NCBI GenBank assembly: GCA_019752335.1
Contig: JAIEMJ010000040.1
Span: forward strand, 62,001-126,000
Length of the DNA: 64,000 bases
Source: Bryobacteraceae bacterium
Lineage (GTDB): Bacteria; Acidobacteriota; Terriglobia; Bryobacterales; Bryobacteraceae
Reading direction: 5' to 3'
Shown: one piece after another, positions 1 through 6,648 of the stretch
Layout: each line of letters starts with the position of its first letter
How positions within the stretch are numbered: position 1 is the first letter of the stretch
Position numbers and translations under genes: made by a program
Notes under the pieces: generated by a model
Told to the model about the DNA's origin: nothing
Database searches by the model: none
The model's input: only the letters and a program-made list of their open reading frames with translations

Positions 1-441
1 TTGCCAGTTGACGTTGCCTGGTGCGGCCGTCAGCCCCATCTCATAGCCGAAGCCGGGCGGCGCATATTCGATGGTCACGAGTTTTTCGACGCGGTGAGGC
101 GCGGTATAGGCAAGCGCCAGGGCGGTGCCGCCGCCATGGTCGTAACCCACAATGCTTGCCGCCGGCACCGACAGCGCGTCCATGATCGCCGCCACATCGC
201 CGGCCAGCGTTGCCTTGTCATAAGGACCGTGCGGAATGTCCGATCCGCCGCAGCCGCGCTGATCGATGGCGATGGCGCGGTAGCCTGCTTCGGCCAGGCG
301 AAGCATCGTTTGGCGCCACATCCACCAATGCTGCGGAAAGCCATGGAGCAGAACAACGGCGGGGCCGTTGCCAAGCGACACCGCATGGAGGCCGACCGCA
401 CCGTTTACCGCGCGGTGATGATGAAAATCGTTGGTGTGCAT
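1..441 (-). CDS. alpha/beta hydrolase, epoxide-hydrolase-like (3' end outside window)
   Basis: The minus strand is open from an ATG at 441 to the window edge, giving 147 residues. The protein has the oxyanion motif HGFPQ near residue 34, then DQRGCGGSD, then the nucleophile elbow GYDHGG near residue 103. An Asp at the elbow (G-x-D-x-G) is typical of epoxide hydrolases and haloalkane dehalogenases, rather than the Ser of esterases. The acid and His of the triad lie outside the window. It is the last visible gene of a minus-strand series of small-molecule enzymes. The substrate cannot be told from sequence. Confidence 0.8.
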   Translation of the reverse strand, partial: MHTNDFHHHRAVNGAVGLHAVSLGNGPAVVLLHGFPQHWWMWRQTMLRLAEAGYRAIAIDQRGCGGSDIPHGPYDKATLAGDVAAIMDALSVPAASIVGYDHGGGTALALAYTAPHRVEKLVTIEYAPPGFGYEMGLTAAPGNVNWQ

Positions 442-493
442 GACGGACTACCTTTCGACTGGGGGATGTGAGGCCGTACGGCTCCAAACGGCC

Positions 494-864
494 TTAGAGT
501 TCACCCGCGCGGTAGAGCACTTCATACATGCCCGGGGACGCCTTCTCGATGAACGGCCGGATGATCTCGAGGTGATCGGCGAACAACTGGCTGTCCCGCC
601 ACGCGTTATAGTTCTCCATACCGTCGAACAGCGCGACATGACTAACTGGCCGCTGCCATCGACGGCGCGGCCCAGACGATTGCCGATCCAGCCCACTACC
701 AGGCCTTGGAGGCGCACATATTCGGCGGTTTGCGCCGCAATGAAATCATCGGCCATGCCGGGCTTGGGGGTAAACAGATTGACCAGAAGAACGTGTCCCG
801 TAACGTGCATGGCACTGGCGCTTCTGTTCTCCGTGCGGTCGTCCATGATGGCGTCGTCTACCAT
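494..864 (-). pseudogene. antibiotic-biosynthesis-monooxygenase-like protein, frameshifted
   Basis: A good start exists at 864 (AAGGAG seven bases upstream). The first frame gives MVDDAIMDD, then MHVTGHVLLVNLF and AEYVRLQGLVVGWIGNRL, up to the GQLV residues. At about 637-645 the coding frame jumps by one missing base. The second frame continues with HVALFDGMENYNAWRDSQ and a C-terminus ending YRAGEL before TAA at 494-496. Joined, the two parts resemble small dimeric alpha/beta-barrel proteins of the ABM type. Either the gene is broken or the assembly lost one base. The family assignment is tentative. Confidence 0.6.
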
Positions 865-956
865 GTTGAGCTCCTTGACGTAGTGGATGGGACCGGCTTG
901 CGAGGGGTAAGCCTTCGCATGGCGAAGTACCGCATTGAATTCGGGGGCACTTACCG

Positions 957-1622
957 TCATAGCGCGGATTGCGTTCCCATTGATGACGAGGCAGGGAGAG
1001 AGGCTGACAGCAAGGCGACCATGGCTGGATCGATGTCCCCGAAATACTCTCGGTAGGCCGCAATTTTGCCGTCTTGAACGTCGAATGACGCAGCGATGCG
1101 ATTTTTATAGGGCATGCCGCCGATGCTGCCATGATCGTCGAATTCGATGACTACGCTGTTGCCGCCTTCGGTAATGCGCAGCGGCTGCTCATAAACCAGT
1201 CGTGGCTCGGCAGTAGCGATCGTGCCGTAAATCCGGGCCGCGCCGTCCTTGCCCACGGTTTCGCCGCGAAACGGACCGAGCGGCATAGTGATGCGCACAT
1301 CGTCAGAGAGACTGTCGAGCCAGGGCGCGAAGTCCCCGCCGCCATGGCCGGCGCCGCTGGCGTGCCATGCCGCAAGGACGATCTCCCGGGGTGACGGTGG
1401 ACGCAGCAGGCCGTCCAGCTTCCGCGCAATGTACTGCGCAACGGGCGAGACGAGCAGGACGGTGGGCAGGACGATGACATAAGTGGACAAGAACCGGCTT
1501 GCCCAGACGTTCGCGAAGTCCGGGCCAAAACCCTTGGCCTGCCACGTGAATATTGCCGACATGATCACGCCCATCAAAAAGGTCATAGTGAGGATCATGA
1601 ACAGCGCTTGGCGGGTAAGCAT
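957..1622 (-). CDS. DUF2798 membrane domain fused to NTF2/SnoaL-like domain
   Basis: This is a 221-residue protein with two parts. Residues 1-70 contain two hydrophobic helices and look like DUF2798 (LTMTFLMGVIMSAIF, then LSTYVIVLPTVLLVSPVAQ). Residues 80-210 look like an NTF2/SnoaL cone fold (AAWHASGAGHGGGDFAPWLDSL, MPLGPFRGE, and a C-terminal KIAAYREYFGD motif). The start ATG shares its A with the upstream isochorismatase-family stop (TGATG), so the two genes are translationally coupled. The function is unknown. A membrane-tethered small-molecule-binding or cyclase-like domain is an inference. Confidence 0.75.
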   Translation of the reverse strand: MLTRQALFMILTMTFLMGVIMSAIFTWQAKGFGPDFANVWASRFLSTYVIVLPTVLLVSPVAQYIARKLDGLLRPPSPREIVLAAWHASGAGHGGGDFAPWLDSLSDDVRITMPLGPFRGETVGKDGAARIYGTIATAEPRLVYEQPLRITEGGNSVVIEFDDHGSIGGMPYKNRIAASFDVQDGKIAAYREYFGDIDPAMVALLSASLPASSSMGTQSAL

Positions 1623-2209
1623 CAGATCCGGTTACCCCAATAGCTGAAGTCCTGATAGAGCTTGCCGACTGCGGGACCTTCCGCGGTCTGCCAGTCCTTC
1701 ATGATTTCCGACGCGATGGAGGCCCAACTCACCATCACGGCCCCGGCCTGCGTCATGCGCAGCATCGCGGCCTGCTCGTTCAGCGCCGTGTCGGACCCAG
1801 ATACATCGACCACGACATAGGGTTCATAGCCACCGCCGATCAGGTCGAGCGTCAGTTGCAGCGTGCAGATGTCGAGCGATATGCCGCCCAGCACGACCTT
1901 GCGGCGGCCCATGCCCGCCAGCGCCTTCTGGAATTCAGGCTCATCCCACGCGCTGGGCGTATGCCGCTCCACCCGCACCGCGTGCCCCGCATGGGCCACG
2001 ACACCGGGAAAGAAACTGCCGCGAAAGCCGCCTTCCTCGCCCAACATAATCGTGGGTATCCGGAACAACTCGGAAAGTCGCGCAAATGCTTCGGCATTGC
2101 GGCGCAGGAGATCGTGGTCGATCGTCTTGATGCCGGGGAAGAACCCGTCCAGGAAATCGACCAGTATGAATACGGAATTGTCACGGGTAAGTTTGTCAGA
2201 GTAGTTCAT
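1622..2209 (-). CDS. isochorismatase-family cysteine hydrolase (YcaC-like)
   Basis: The 195-residue protein has the family's first active-site Asp in LVDFLDGFF (near residue 18) and the nucleophile region VLGGISLDICTLQLTLDL, where Cys is in the ICT motif. This matches YcaC-like hydrolases of the cysteine hydrolase superfamily, which cleave amides or isochorismate-like ethers. A GGAG site lies eight bases before the ATG at 2209. It is the first gene of a coupled pair with the DUF2798/NTF2 gene. The substrate is not known. Confidence 0.85.
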   Translation of the reverse strand: MNYSDKLTRDNSVFILVDFLDGFFPGIKTIDHDLLRRNAEAFARLSELFRIPTIMLGEEGGFRGSFFPGVVAHAGHAVRVERHTPSAWDEPEFQKALAGMGRRKVVLGGISLDICTLQLTLDLIGGGYEPYVVVDVSGSDTALNEQAAMLRMTQAGAVMVSWASIASEIMKDWQTAEGPAVGKLYQDFSYWGNRI

Positions 2210-2332
2210 GGCGTGGCTCCTTGTTCGCGGCGAACGGCAACCGCAGTAGTTGGGACTACCTAATCGCTATCGTAAAGACCTCTGAGCGAGGGCGAATCTG
2301 CAAAAGGAGAGCCAAAGAACTACTCCTTTTGG

Positions 2333-2440
2333 CTAGTCGTCAATGCGAAGGATCCCGCGATCCACGGCCACAACCATGCCGTGCGTCCGGTATTGAACGA
2401 TCAACGTGGAGGAACGTTACGCTGAACCCGGGGCGTCTTG
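2333..2440 (-). pseudogene. remnant of a LuxR-type response regulator C-terminus
   Basis: The minus strand reads VQYRTHGMVVAVDRGILRIDD then TAG at 2333-2335. This corresponds to the end of the intact response regulator at 6649-7293 (VQDRTHAVVVALDRGILRIEE). Base similarity continues on both sides, roughly 2303-2427 against 6621-6747, including the bases after the stop codon. An in-frame stop (TAA) appears just upstream of the matching segment, so only a decayed tail is left. The rest of 2210-2521, about 310 bases between genes, shows nothing else recognisable. Confidence 0.75.
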
Positions 2441-2521
2441 AAGAGTTAGGCGCCGGCCAGCCCGGTCCAGGCATCTGTCGTTGGCTTGGCCAAGACCGCG
2501 ACACACGAGAGGAAACTCCGC

Positions 2522-3913
2522 CTAGAGGCGGTAGGTAATCCCGAGGTTGAGAAAGTGCACCGCCTTGCCCGGCGGGGTTTCTCTGAGAAACTGTCCGGGC
2601 AGAAAGACTGAGTAGCCGAGGCTTACTCGCACATGCCTGTCGCGATTCCAGATGATTTCGGTTGATCCTTGCTGGCCAATAAATCTGGCCTGGCTCCCCA
2701 AGCCGTTGCGCAGCAACTGCCCGCCCACACCGTAGACGGCATCCCGCGTGCTGGTCCGGAAGAACCAGACCCAGCCGGACTCCACCCTCCATTTGGCGTG
2801 CGGCCGGAATTCGAGCAGCGGATGCAGATCACTGAAGTTGAAGGGCCCGTTCAACAGTACCTTGCCCCAATAGCCACCCTTCGGATAGGGGACGAGGAAG
2901 TTGGACAGGTTCTCGCCGCCCCGGTCACCGGAAGAGAGGTTCGCGCGGAGGGCCAGGTGCGGCTTTCCAGCGAGATCGAATTCGTAGCCGGTCTCGGTGG
3001 CGACGCCCCAGGCGCGGATCGGCGTAGAGTCACGAAAGGTTCCTGTTTGCCAAGCGCCTTCGTAGTCGTAGATCCAGCCGCCCCGGCGCTCCGCCCAGCG
3101 AGCCCCGATGGATTGGCGCTGGTCGCGGCCGGCTCCGCGCTGCCACCGGCGGAGTTTTTGATCCGTGTAAAGCCAGAAGATGTCGAGGCGCCGGGCGACG
3201 GTGGCGTAGAGACCGGCGAGGATCTGCCGGTGTTCGGGGGAGTCATCGAACCAGCCCCGGTTCGTTTGGACGGGTCGCGCGGCGAAGGTATCCACGCGAA
3301 GGTTCTTTCGACGAAAGGTGAGCGTGGCAGCATCGAAGCTTTGACGGACGTTGGGACCCTCACGATTGTTGATGAGGAGCCCTTGTCCATAGGTGAGTTC
3401 CTGCCGGCCGGTCCGGAGGACGAGAGATCGCGACTTTGTCTCGAGCAGCTTCAAATCCACAAATGCTTCATGGATGTCGCCCTTGTCTTGGTCAACGGGC
3501 CGTGGGCGTCCACTTCGGCCGTTTACGAAGTTGAACTTCAGGGTGGTGAAGAACCGGACACGGCGGTTGAGGTGCAGGTCCGCATAGGGCATGAAACGAT
3601 GGAGGAAGTAGTTCTGGTTGGGTTTCTCCGGATCGCTCCCCCAGTCCTCGTTGCGAAACCACTCGGTCTCCACTCGATACTCGGCACCGAAGGTGGCATA
3701 GGCGGACCCGGTTTTATTTAGCGAGACAAACTTGAAACCGTCCAAGGGATCCGTGCGCTTAGCCGGATCGCGGAGAAAGCTGTAGTCTTCGGTCCAGCGC
3801 ACGACGCCGGGCGTGGGACGCGCCGCCGTGGACTGGGCGGGGAGCTGACATACTCTGCTCACCAGAAGGACCATGGAGGCCACGATTGCTGACTTGGTCA
3901 GGAGGAAGACCAC
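2522..3913 (-). CDS. alginate-export-family outer membrane beta-barrel
   Basis: The 463-residue protein has an N-terminal signal-like segment (IVASMVLLVSRVCQLPAQS), then about 430 residues of alternating strands typical of AlgE-like porins: EYRVETEWFRNEDW, RFFTTLKFNF, LVLRTGRQELTYGQG with a following NNREGPNVRQSFD. It ends in a hydrophobic strand closing on YRL, as outer membrane barrels do. The start is given as GTG 3913, with GGGGAG three bases before it; an ATG at 3874 would give a shorter signal peptide. It follows the SnoaL-like gene by eight bases and is probably co-transcribed with it. The exported compound is unknown. Confidence 0.8.
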   Translation of the reverse strand: MVFLLTKSAIVASMVLLVSRVCQLPAQSTAARPTPGVVRWTEDYSFLRDPAKRTDPLDGFKFVSLNKTGSAYATFGAEYRVETEWFRNEDWGSDPEKPNQNYFLHRFMPYADLHLNRRVRFFTTLKFNFVNGRSGRPRPVDQDKGDIHEAFVDLKLLETKSRSLVLRTGRQELTYGQGLLINNREGPNVRQSFDAATLTFRRKNLRVDTFAARPVQTNRGWFDDSPEHRQILAGLYATVARRLDIFWLYTDQKLRRWQRGAGRDQRQSIGARWAERRGGWIYDYEGAWQTGTFRDSTPIRAWGVATETGYEFDLAGKPHLALRANLSSGDRGGENLSNFLVPYPKGGYWGKVLLNGPFNFSDLHPLLEFRPHAKWRVESGWVWFFRTSTRDAVYGVGGQLLRNGLGSQARFIGQQGSTEIIWNRDRHVRVSLGYSVFLPGQFLRETPPGKAVHFLNLGITYRL

Positions 3914-3921
3914 ATGCTCCC

Positions 3922-4380
3922 CTACTTGAGGATGCGCGAGGCGATGTGCTCACGAAAGATCATTTCGTAGCTGAGCGGATTCAAAGCTCCCACATAGTTC
4001 TCCACCAGCTTGCCATGGCGGAAACGCAGCAAATGAATCTCCGCCATCTCGATGCGTTGACCAGTGGGGCGCACTCCGTAGAGCTCGCCCGAGTGGACGG
4101 CACTGGCCAGGAAGCGAACGAGAACCCGGCCGTCCATCGTCTCGACGATGTCTTCGATTTTCATGACCCCTTCTGAAAAGGCAAGGCCCAGCGTTGAACC
4201 CAGAACTTGTCCATACTCGGCCTTGCCGATGATGGGCGCGTCGGGTTTTAGCCCCGTGCTGACCCAAACATGGTCGTCGACAATTTCGCCGAAGGCAGTT
4301 GGGTCGGCGCCGCCCAGTACACCTTCAACAAAGCGTCGGGCTAGGCGGATATTCTCAGATTCATTGGAGTTGATTTGCAT
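3922..4380 (-). CDS. SnoaL-like / NTF2-fold protein
   Basis: The 152-residue protein starts at ATG 4380, preceded by AAAGGA at good spacing; a longer in-frame start at 4407 has no such site. Typical SnoaL-like features are an N-terminal helix with ARRFVEGVLGGAD, a central strand EDIVETMDGRVLVRF, and a C-terminal strand set with GQRIEMAEIHLLRF and GKLVENYV. These proteins act as cyclases or hydrolases, or simply bind small molecules. The adjacent outer membrane barrel and cupin suggest catabolism of an imported compound, but this is inference. Confidence 0.8.
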   Translation of the reverse strand: MQINSNESENIRLARRFVEGVLGGADPTAFGEIVDDHVWVSTGLKPDAPIIGKAEYGQVLGSTLGLAFSEGVMKIEDIVETMDGRVLVRFLASAVHSGELYGVRPTGQRIEMAEIHLLRFRHGKLVENYVGALNPLSYEMIFREHIASRILK

Positions 4381-4466
4381 GTATGGTTCCTTTCGAATGG
4401 GGCCCACGCCCCGGTTTGTCCTTTTGCTTGGTTAGTTAGTGCCGCACCCGAACAATCTAGATGCGG

Positions 4467-4569
4467 TTAGTGCGGCAGGGTTCCTGCTATCGCACCCCCG
4501 CCGTCGACATCCAGGGTGACCCCCGTGATGAACCCATTCGTCATCAACATGAGCGCTGCTTCGGCGTCA
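4467..4569 (-). pseudogene. remnant of a short-chain dehydrogenase C-terminus
   Basis: Immediately after the cupin stop codon (4567-4569) the minus strand stays open in another frame. It reads DAEAALMLMTNGFITGV and TLDVDGGGAIAGTLPH before TAA at 4467-4469. The pattern AALMLMTNGFITGVTLDVDGG is the hallmark C-terminus of classical SDR oxidoreductases. Nothing of the Rossmann N-terminus or the catalytic YxxxK remains, so this is the scar of a deletion joining the cupin gene to the end of an SDR gene. Confidence 0.75.
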
Positions 4570-4959
4570 TGATGCCACCCCTTCAGCCAAATGAAAATCG
4601 GGATTCTGGGGATCGACAAACGCGGTCTGCACGGTCAGGATCTTGCAACCCGTCTTGGACTCATGCGGACCGTGAACGGCACCTACCGGGTGCGTAAGGA
4701 ATCCGCCCGGCCCGTGCGTTACCCCATCGTTGATAAAGTCACCCTCCAACACGTAGTGCGCTTCGGCGCCTTCGTTGTGGTAGTGGGCGGGGATCCTTGC
4801 TCCCGGGTGAATGTGAATCACCGTAGTGACCAAGCCACGGCGGGAGTCGAAGTTTAAAAGCTGTGCAGTAACGCCGCCAGGGGTAGCGCCGGGGATGGCA
4901 AAGTCGATTTCTGGAATCTGGTTGGTGTCAGTGGCGAATGAAGTTCCTTGGTGGTGCAT
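4567..4959 (-). CDS. cupin-domain protein
   Basis: The protein has 130 residues from ATG 4959, with AGGAGA upstream; the longer open frame upstream is not needed. The cupin metal motif is visible as HIHPGARIPAHYHNEGAEAHYVLEG near residues 48-72, followed by the second motif HPVGAVHGPHES. Small single-domain cupins of this kind bind one metal and act as dioxygenases, isomerases or sensors. It sits between the SnoaL-like gene and a chimeric oxidoreductase ORF, and its 3' end abuts the SDR remnant. Confidence 0.85.
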   Translation of the reverse strand: MHHQGTSFATDTNQIPEIDFAIPGATPGGVTAQLLNFDSRRGLVTTVIHIHPGARIPAHYHNEGAEAHYVLEGDFINDGVTHGPGGFLTHPVGAVHGPHESKTGCKILTVQTAFVDPQNPDFHLAEGVAS

Positions 4960-4996
4960 ATTGATTCGTCTCCTGTTTTGTTTCGGTTTCTGGCTT

Positions 4997-5596
4997 TTAG
5001 CCCAAATTGGCCCAGATCGTCTTGTACTGGGTGTAATTCTCCAAGGCCTCGGCACCCTGTTCACGGCCGTAGCCGGACATCTTAAACCCTCCAAAGGGCG
5101 CGTTGGGGTGGTATTTGTGCCAGGTGTTCAGCCACACGGTGCCGGCCTTGATCTTGTCCGCGAGGCGGAGGGCGCGTCGCATATCGCCCGTTTGAATTCC
5201 CGATGCCAGGCCGTAGCTGGTGTCGTTGGCGATGCGGATGGCTTCCTCCTCGCCTTCGAAGGGGATGATGGGCAGCACAGGCCCGAAGATCTCTTCGCGG
5301 GAAATCTTGAGGTCGTTTATCGCGTTGGCAAACAAGGTCGGCTCGATGAAGAGGCCCTTGCCATTGATCTTCCGAGTGCCTCCACCAGCTGCGGTGAGTG
5401 AGTCTTCAATACTGGCAAACGGAACCGCCAGCACGATGACGTCGCCAAAGGTTGCGGCCTCAGAGACGGCCAACATCCCTTTTGCGGGATCTTCCTTACC
5501 CGCACGTACGCCGAATCGTACTTCATGCCCGTTCGCAGTCCAGTATCTGGCCAAGCCGGTGGCTACCTTACCTGCACCGATGATTCCGATTTTCAT
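4997..5596 (-). CDS. chimeric ORF: F420/NADP-oxidoreductase N-terminus joined to aldehyde dehydrogenase C-terminus
   Basis: The 199-residue ORF has a clear AAAGGAG site before ATG 5596. Residues 1 to about 70 match F420-dependent NADP reductase-like Rossmann domains (MKIGIIGAGKVATGLARYW, then VIVLAVPFASIED). From about residue 72 the sequence becomes the last quarter of an aldehyde dehydrogenase: GKGLFIEPTLF, EEIFGPVLPIIPF, ANDTSYGLASG, AGTVWLN, APFGGFKMSGYGREQG. The ALDH catalytic Cys and general-base Glu precede this part in the family and are absent, as is the ALDH nucleotide site. The reading frame is preserved across the junction. The product cannot be a normal ALDH, and whether it folds is unknown. 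Confidence 0.8.
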   Translation of the reverse strand: MKIGIIGAGKVATGLARYWTANGHEVRFGVRAGKEDPAKGMLAVSEAATFGDVIVLAVPFASIEDSLTAAGGGTRKINGKGLFIEPTLFANAINDLKISREEIFGPVLPIIPFEGEEEAIRIANDTSYGLASGIQTGDMRRALRLADKIKAGTVWLNTWHKYHPNAPFGGFKMSGYGREQGAEALENYTQYKTIWANLG

Positions 5597-5611
5597 TGTG
5601 TGAAACTCCTT

Positions 5612-6577
5612 TCAGTGCTTGTCGCTTGGTTGGTTGAGGTCGAGTTGAACGATTTTTGCCGTCGCAACCCCGCTTGGCGGCGGAAGCGACATTCCGCCGT
5701 TCGTGACAACGTAGAGTTTGTTGCGGTCCCCCGACAAGCGACCGAAGGCGAGCGCTGTGCAGCCCGTAACGCCAGAGCTTGCGTCAGCGATGACGGTACT
5801 GGTGCCGTCCGGAGCTACTTTCACGACGCTGTTATACACATGGGTAGTGCCGTAGAGATTGCCGGCTTCATCGAGCGCAAAGTCGTCCAGGTTATTTGCA
5901 GACGACACCAGCGTGATCGCCCCGGGCTTGCCATCGCGTCTGATGGCGATCTTAAATAGCTGTTGACGCGCTGTGTTCGAGGCGTACAGGAAGCCGCCGA
6001 AGGCCTTCAGACCATTTACTCCCGGCGTTGGATTGTTGGCATCGGCGCGCTTGAGTCGATCATCCTCGAGCCATACGGTGGTCTTCCCAGTGGTACCGTC
6101 CGCCAGGTAGATGGCGCCGCGGTAAGAGTCGGCAACGAAGAACTGGTCCCCTTTCCAGGCGGCTACGCCATTAGGAAACATGCCGCTGTCGATCAGGCCA
6201 AGCAACGAGGCTTTACCCCTTCGATCAACCGAGAACAACGCCGCCTTCTCTTCCTTCGTCCATCCTGAAACCAGGAAGCCGCCGTCGCGGCGTTGGGCAA
6301 TACCGGCCACCTTGCCCTCCACATGCGCCCAGGCTTGCGGAGCGCTTCCCGATGCCATCCGGTAGATCCTGCCGTCCAGATGGCTGTTGATGTAGGCGGC
6401 GCCATCGGCGGCAATCGCGATGTTCTCAAGAAAGGTGTTCGTTGGGAATTCCGCCAGCGTGTGGCTGCTCACCAATTGCACGGGCGTATTCGCATACACC
6501 GGCGGTAGTTGCTGCGCGCGAGCAGCCAACACCAACAGCAATACGGGCCAATGATCGCGGCGTCGAAGAAAGTCCAT
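5612..6577 (-). CDS. exported SMP-30/gluconolactonase-like beta-propeller
   Basis: The 321-residue protein starts at ATG 6577 (MDFLRRRDHWP then a hydrophobic stretch ending ARAQ), which fits a signal peptide; the longer ORF start at 6631 would bury it. Repeating blades are visible (LENIAIAADGAAYINSHLDG, GVAAWKGDQFFVADSYRGAIY, VNGLKAFGGFLYASN, DDFALDEAGNLYGTTH). This fits a six-bladed SMP-30/LRE-like propeller, often a periplasmic lactonase or sugar-binding protein. It lies 71 bases downstream of the response regulator and may be part of its transcription unit. Confidence 0.75.
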   Translation of the reverse strand: MDFLRRRDHWPVLLLVLAARAQQLPPVYANTPVQLVSSHTLAEFPTNTFLENIAIAADGAAYINSHLDGRIYRMASGSAPQAWAHVEGKVAGIAQRRDGGFLVSGWTKEEKAALFSVDRRGKASLLGLIDSGMFPNGVAAWKGDQFFVADSYRGAIYLADGTTGKTTVWLEDDRLKRADANNPTPGVNGLKAFGGFLYASNTARQQLFKIAIRRDGKPGAITLVSSANNLDDFALDEAGNLYGTTHVYNSVVKVAPDGTSTVIADASSGVTGCTALAFGRLSGDRNKLYVVTNGGMSLPPPSGVATAKIVQLDLNQPSDKH

Positions 6578-6648
6578 AAGGCAAGCGTAACGAATGCCGC
6601 GGTGAAAGTGAATCTGGAAAAAGAGAGTCATAGGACTACGCCTGTTGG

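Follow-up and report, generated by a model that had tools for sequence, protein, structure and literature searches.

The stretch of DNA analysed here (the window, 64,000 bp of a Bryobacteraceae bacterium genome) carries on its minus strand one open reading frame (ORF) of 199 residues that is built from parts of two genes, an F420-dependent NADP oxidoreductase (NADPox) and an aldehyde dehydrogenase (ALDH). In our judgement this chimera is probably a real and recent fusion, born of a single deletion of about 1.5 kb, and its product is most likely an inactive remnant. The initial annotation of this DNA had left three origins open: a recent deletion fusion, a mis-assembly and a new small protein. 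The first is the best supported of the three, a local mis-assembly is possible, and a new small protein finds little support.

Composition of the chimeric frame

The chimera and its immediate surroundings comprise the following features.

4467..4574, minus strand: probable C-terminal remnant of a short-chain dehydrogenase (SDR), 35 codons and a stop (weak matches, best E 0.052 and 0.07)
4567..4959, minus strand: cupin gene, directly downstream of the chimera, ATG at 4959 (Pfam)
4997..5596, minus strand: chimeric ORF, 199 aa, ATG at 5596, stop ending at 4997
4997..5386, minus strand: ALDH-derived part, residues 71-199 and stop (Pfam PF00171, model 336-461 of 461)
5381..5398, minus strand: junction zone, residues 67-72 (LTAAGG), by comparison with the ALDH codons and NADPox proteins of relatives
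5387..5596, minus strand: NADPox-derived part, residues 1-70 (Pfam PF03807 and alignment)
5606..5612, minus strand: Shine-Dalgarno sequence AAAGGAG, abutting the stop codon of the SMP-30-like gene that precedes the chimera
5612..6631, minus strand: SMP-30/NHL-like gene, directly upstream of the chimera (Pfam; relatives in 6 of 21 ALDH loci)

The coordinates, the single open frame and the good ribosome site given by the initial annotation are all confirmed; the strand, which it did not state, is minus. A clear Shine-Dalgarno sequence, AAAGGAGTTTCACACA, lies ahead of the ATG, which is 15 bases from the stop of the SMP-30-like gene, and 37 bases separate the chimera's own stop from the ATG of the cupin gene. 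Since the ribosome site and the stop are still present, the 199-residue product is probably translated. Pfam assigns residues 2-70 to F420_oxidored (PF03807, model 1-79 of 94, E 1.3e-10) and residues 70-194 to Aldedh (PF00171, model 336-461 of 461, E 1.8e-46), in agreement with the earlier description of an oxidoreductase N-terminus joined to an ALDH C-terminus. That description also stressed that no frame is lost at the join. The frame is indeed intact, but a random join is in frame one time in three, so this by itself is uninformative on selection.

As in other members of the F420-dependent NADP oxidoreductase family, residues 2-70 make up the N-terminal portion of the dinucleotide-binding domain. 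Unlike them, the chimera lacks the rest of this domain and the C-terminal part, so that about 130-140 further residues of its aligned relatives are absent, and one loop is about 8-10 residues shorter than in most of them. An incomplete domain and a missing C-terminal part are not what an active F420/NADP oxidoreductase would have. The closest sequences to the NADPox part reach no more than 44-48% identity, and no donor was recovered among the sequences searched. Used alone as a query, it had no other match in the phylum genomes at E<=1e-10, matched four plasmid records at 37-45% identity, and hit no solved structure at E<=0.01; the intact NADPox relative in locus L050 matches two solved members of the family, 5n2i and 1jax.

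The ALDH-derived part corresponds to the C-terminal quarter of the ALDH superfamily protein (PF00171). In intact relatives two motifs, ELGGKSP and GEVCVAG, which we take to hold the general-base Glu and the nucleophile Cys respectively, lie upstream of the retained portion, and both are absent from the chimera, so the earlier remark that the ALDH Cys and Glu are missing stands on this assignment. With the cofactor domain gone as well, the chimera does not have the parts of an active aldehyde dehydrogenase. The best NCBIfam match is betaine-aldehyde dehydrogenase, far below the cut-off.

Residues 66-75 of the chimera read S-L-T-A-A-G-G-G-T-R. At this point NADPox relatives have, for example, A-L-x-x-A-G and ALDH relatives L-T-A-G-G-G, and because the two parental families are similar here the breakpoint is uncertain by about 4 codons. 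The parents probably shared only a few bases at the junction, which would fit illegitimate recombination between parental DNA that is now gone. A shared stretch so short would be unable by itself to mislead an assembler. No repeat of at least 11 bases was found at the junction in the present sequence, from which the sequence before the deletion may have differed.

Homologous loci and the origin of the fusion

We compared the gene order with that of 21 ALDH loci from other bacteria (L036-L056), whose ALDHs are 56-79% identical to that of L046, itself in the set; the ALDH of L050 is in two pieces, 76 and 83% identical to it. A NADPox gene is present in 15 of the 21 loci and, as a partial copy, in a 16th (L041). 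In six of them (L037, L039, L040, L043, L052 and L055), which span four genera and include three from Mesorhizobium, it lies directly upstream of the ALDH gene on the same strand, with 12 to about 70 bases between the end of the NADPox frame and the first aligned ALDH residue. The ALDH part of the chimera has 80-87% amino-acid identity to these six (over 113 residues for L055). Distant relatives, and only these, thus carry the two parts unfused on a single contig, in this order and co-directional; a close relative with the unfused pair at the chimera's own locus was not found, and the polarity of the change rests on these distant homologous clusters. With L037 as the template, 1,530 bases are missing between NADPox residue 70 and the corresponding ALDH position.

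The ancestral cluster would then have contained co-directional NADPox and ALDH genes, with NADPox first. A single deletion, about 1.5 kb long, would have removed roughly the final two thirds of NADPox together with the initial three quarters of ALDH, leaving the remaining parts joined in frame; its probable mechanism is illegitimate recombination at a very short repeat, in the similar codons of the two genes near the junction. In the product the NADP-binding domain would be incomplete, and the C-terminal part of NADPox, the cofactor domain of ALDH and the catalytic Cys and Glu would all be missing. Given these losses, it is most likely an unstable and inactive remnant; the cluster around it was probably acquired laterally and appears to be undergoing trimming.

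Events of this kind are known. In the deletion-born fusions described by Kaul et al. 2026 (PMC12803068), one ORF results when a deletion brings together pieces of two distinct genes; the narX case combines genes from one operon, and in the accounts of acrR-glcD and mlaE-htpX catalytic motifs are lost and function is not evident. The present chimera fits this pattern as a two-gene ORF with catalytic motifs lost and no function evident. It differs from the cases set out there, which come mostly from deeply sampled species, in being found in one genome, with the unfused state in distant clusters and not in conspecific strains. It would be one more deletion-born fusion and no new kind of system, and a clear single case of how a deletion between adjacent co-directional genes can make a chimeric ORF, which may then be annotated "aldehyde dehydrogenase".

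Among the other explanations, an assembly error is the strongest, and we consider it unlikely. On this reading both NADPox and ALDH would be intact in the genome, and the assembler would have dropped roughly 1.5 kb between them. Only one assembly of the species was found, and two further irregularities in the window, the SDR-like tail and a frame change at 448-960 (both described below), could also be sequence errors. Against it stand the lack of a repeat at the present junction, where the parents appear to have shared a few codons only, and the rest of the assembly, which is 97% complete in 55 contigs and in which neither missing part has a close stray copy. With residues 1-364 of the L046 ALDH standing for the missing ALDH part, the best match is 36% identical; the L050 NADPox has a 38% match on contig 12 and, apart from that, only hits the chimera (48%). 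It is also unlikely that unrelated loci were misjoined, because the types of gene that flank the chimera are found beside the ALDH elsewhere: SMP-30-like genes in 6 of the 21 loci, SnoaL genes in 6 and alginate-export porins in 4. No cupin relative was listed in these loci, which counts against the proposed origin. Also rejected was recombination with a paralogue elsewhere in the genome, where the nearest ALDH is only 36-42% identical.

Homologous clusters also carry broken copies of the same ALDH, which further argues against an assembly error. The frame is broken in L050 (L050:4946-6441) and L055 (L055:5104-6554), although L050 is a metagenome assembly and its break may therefore be an error. 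In a cyanobacterial record (L099, 3566-3619), only the last 18 residues of the ALDH remain, ahead of a SMP-30-like gene, apparently an independent loss. Together with the window, 4 of 23 clusters (the 21 loci, L099 and the window) have a broken ALDH copy, suggesting that the ALDH of this probably mobile cluster is often dispensable.

Conservation, predicted structure and fate of the product

The ALDH half was compared with 19 close ALDHs that are ungapped and full length (L044 and L055 were excluded; L050, with its frame break upstream, was included). It is 79-89% identical to 18 of them and 71% identical to the 19th (L056). Their hosts are scattered over cyanobacteria, sphingomonads, Mesorhizobium, Paraburkholderia, actinobacteria and an Acidobacteriaceae bin, whereas in a sample of 396 genomes of the phylum the 17 others that match at E<=1e-40 are no more than 48-54% identical. 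This distribution suggests that the ALDH subfamily is patchy and probably moves between lineages.

Of the 129 ALDH columns, 58 are invariant in the 19 relatives, and the chimera retains all 58. When the relatives are left out one at a time, 10 of the 19 are equally free of deviations. By simple arithmetic, if these sites are unconstrained, their complete retention limits the change that followed the fusion to about 5% (95% level). The ALDH branch of the chimera in the tree is 0.039, against a median of 0.053. The intact columns and short branch indicate that either the fusion is recent or the ALDH half is still constrained, and the data fit both. The divergence of the ALDH half from its nearest relatives should nearly all be older than the fusion.

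If the half were still constrained, the fusion could be a functional new protein, expressed and selected, for example an NADP-binding part-Rossmann with a strand-swapping ALDH tail, or a subunit modifier. We regard this as improbable. The intact frame, the strong ribosome site, the operon-like position and the retained invariant columns all speak for it, as does the predicted structure of the N-terminal half. When the 199-residue product was modelled, as the initial annotation had proposed, AlphaFold with mixed alignment rows gave that half a block pLDDT of 70-93 and the ALDH half only 25-63 (pTM 0.40); with ALDH rows only, the ALDH half reached 27-71 and the N-terminal half, which then had no rows, 25-32 (pTM 0.41). 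The proposed prediction thus yields a confident N-terminal half, given NADPox rows, and a poor ALDH half in both models. The alignments were shallow (20 and 28 rows) and the models were run without an intact control, so they indicate only weakly that the ALDH half fails to fold by itself. The poor models of this half nevertheless count against a functional protein, as do the incompleteness of both domains in Pfam, the absence of the junction from all other matches listed and the lack of a close intact ALDH partner in the genome. The more specific version, a newborn stable NADP-binding part-domain with a putative ALDH oligomerisation tail, maintained by selection, is very improbable; if true, it would be a natural one-step deletion yielding a useful new protein.

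It had also been thought conceivable that the tail, which may include the ALDH oligomerisation strand, forms hetero-oligomers with an intact ALDH. This is unlikely, since the genome encodes no close partner: its nearest intact ALDH is 42% identical to the retained part, and 36% was the best match to the missing part of a relative.

The same junction was sought in other genomes, and none of the matches listed has it. Among 61 relatives including the genome itself (E<=0.001), only the genome's own match starts before residue 26 among the matches listed. No other fusion appeared in the 396 phylum genomes, again including its own, at E<=1e-40, a threshold at which a diverged fusion could be missed, nor in 64 loci obtained from a contig search. 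Plasmids gave 3247 matched records, of which 391 cover 80% or more of the query, one lies at 60-80% identity and none above; no fusion is present among the best 30, where the rows that bear a feature name are ALDHs and the others are unannotated. Phages gave 66 records, all under 60% identity, with no fusion among the best 5. L046 and L050, which had appeared as full-length matches, were rejected, each having two separate genes, ALDH and then NADPox. A conserved fusion family was accordingly rejected over the relatives, phylum genomes, loci, plasmids and phages listed, and a limited literature search found no published report of this very fusion.

In the tree, the ALDH half groups with L036 (support 84/83, below the starred level), outside the loci in which NADPox precedes ALDH, a placement that counts against the simple deletion. 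No NADPox is seen in L036, and in L050 the two genes stand in reverse order, so the nearest ALDHs have no NADPox directly upstream, as might be expected had the ancestor been arranged differently (with ALDH ahead of NADPox and a duplication or inversion, for instance, or with a larger deletion over more genes); we give this alternative very little weight, because it requires a longer deletion or additional events and the simple order is seen in 6 of the 21 loci.

Neighbouring genes and signs of erosion

The chimera may not be the only scar in this region, and other erosion nearby speaks for the deletion. A frame of 35 codons at 4467-4574, overlapping the stop of the cupin gene (ATGA), is probably the tail of an SDR gene and a second deletion scar. 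Pfam finds nothing in it. It has 21 PDB hits (best E 0.052): by our count 15 lie close to the C-terminus of SDR-type enzymes, two on the N-terminal part of one such enzyme and four on phage spike or baseplate proteins. A tblastn search of plasmids returned four records, all annotated SDR, at E 0.07-0.09. These matches are individually weak, and taken together they make the SDR-tail reading likely.

A frameshift is possible in the ORF at 448-960 (minus strand), which as a whole has no Pfam match and seems to switch frame within antibiotic-biosynthesis-monooxygenase-like sequence. Its first part matches the Pfam ABM model below threshold (E 0.11) and has five plasmid matches, all weak, that carry the annotation NAD(P)H-dependent oxidoreductase, and its second part has no match in Pfam or plasmids; with weak or no matches to the parts, the frameshift is put no higher. 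The large genes further to the left (hydrolase, isochorismatase, amidohydrolase, porin and MFS) look intact by Pfam coverage.

The gene cluster as a whole was probably acquired laterally, judging from how rarely three of its members were found in relatives. The cupin has two distant matches in 60 relatives (42% and 37%), the DUF2798-SnoaL protein none in 60 relatives at E<=1e-6, and the SMP-30-like gene none in 298 other genomes of the class at a strict E<=1e-30.

The DUF2798-SnoaL protein is encoded at 957-1622 (minus strand) by one frame that contains a DUF2798 and a SnoaL_2 domain, and it may be another fusion. Positions 1-6631 of the window, together with its own contig C21 from about 54421, form a long run of catabolic-looking genes on the minus strand, including SMP-30-like, cupin and SnoaL genes, porins, isochorismatases, an amidohydrolase and an MFS gene.
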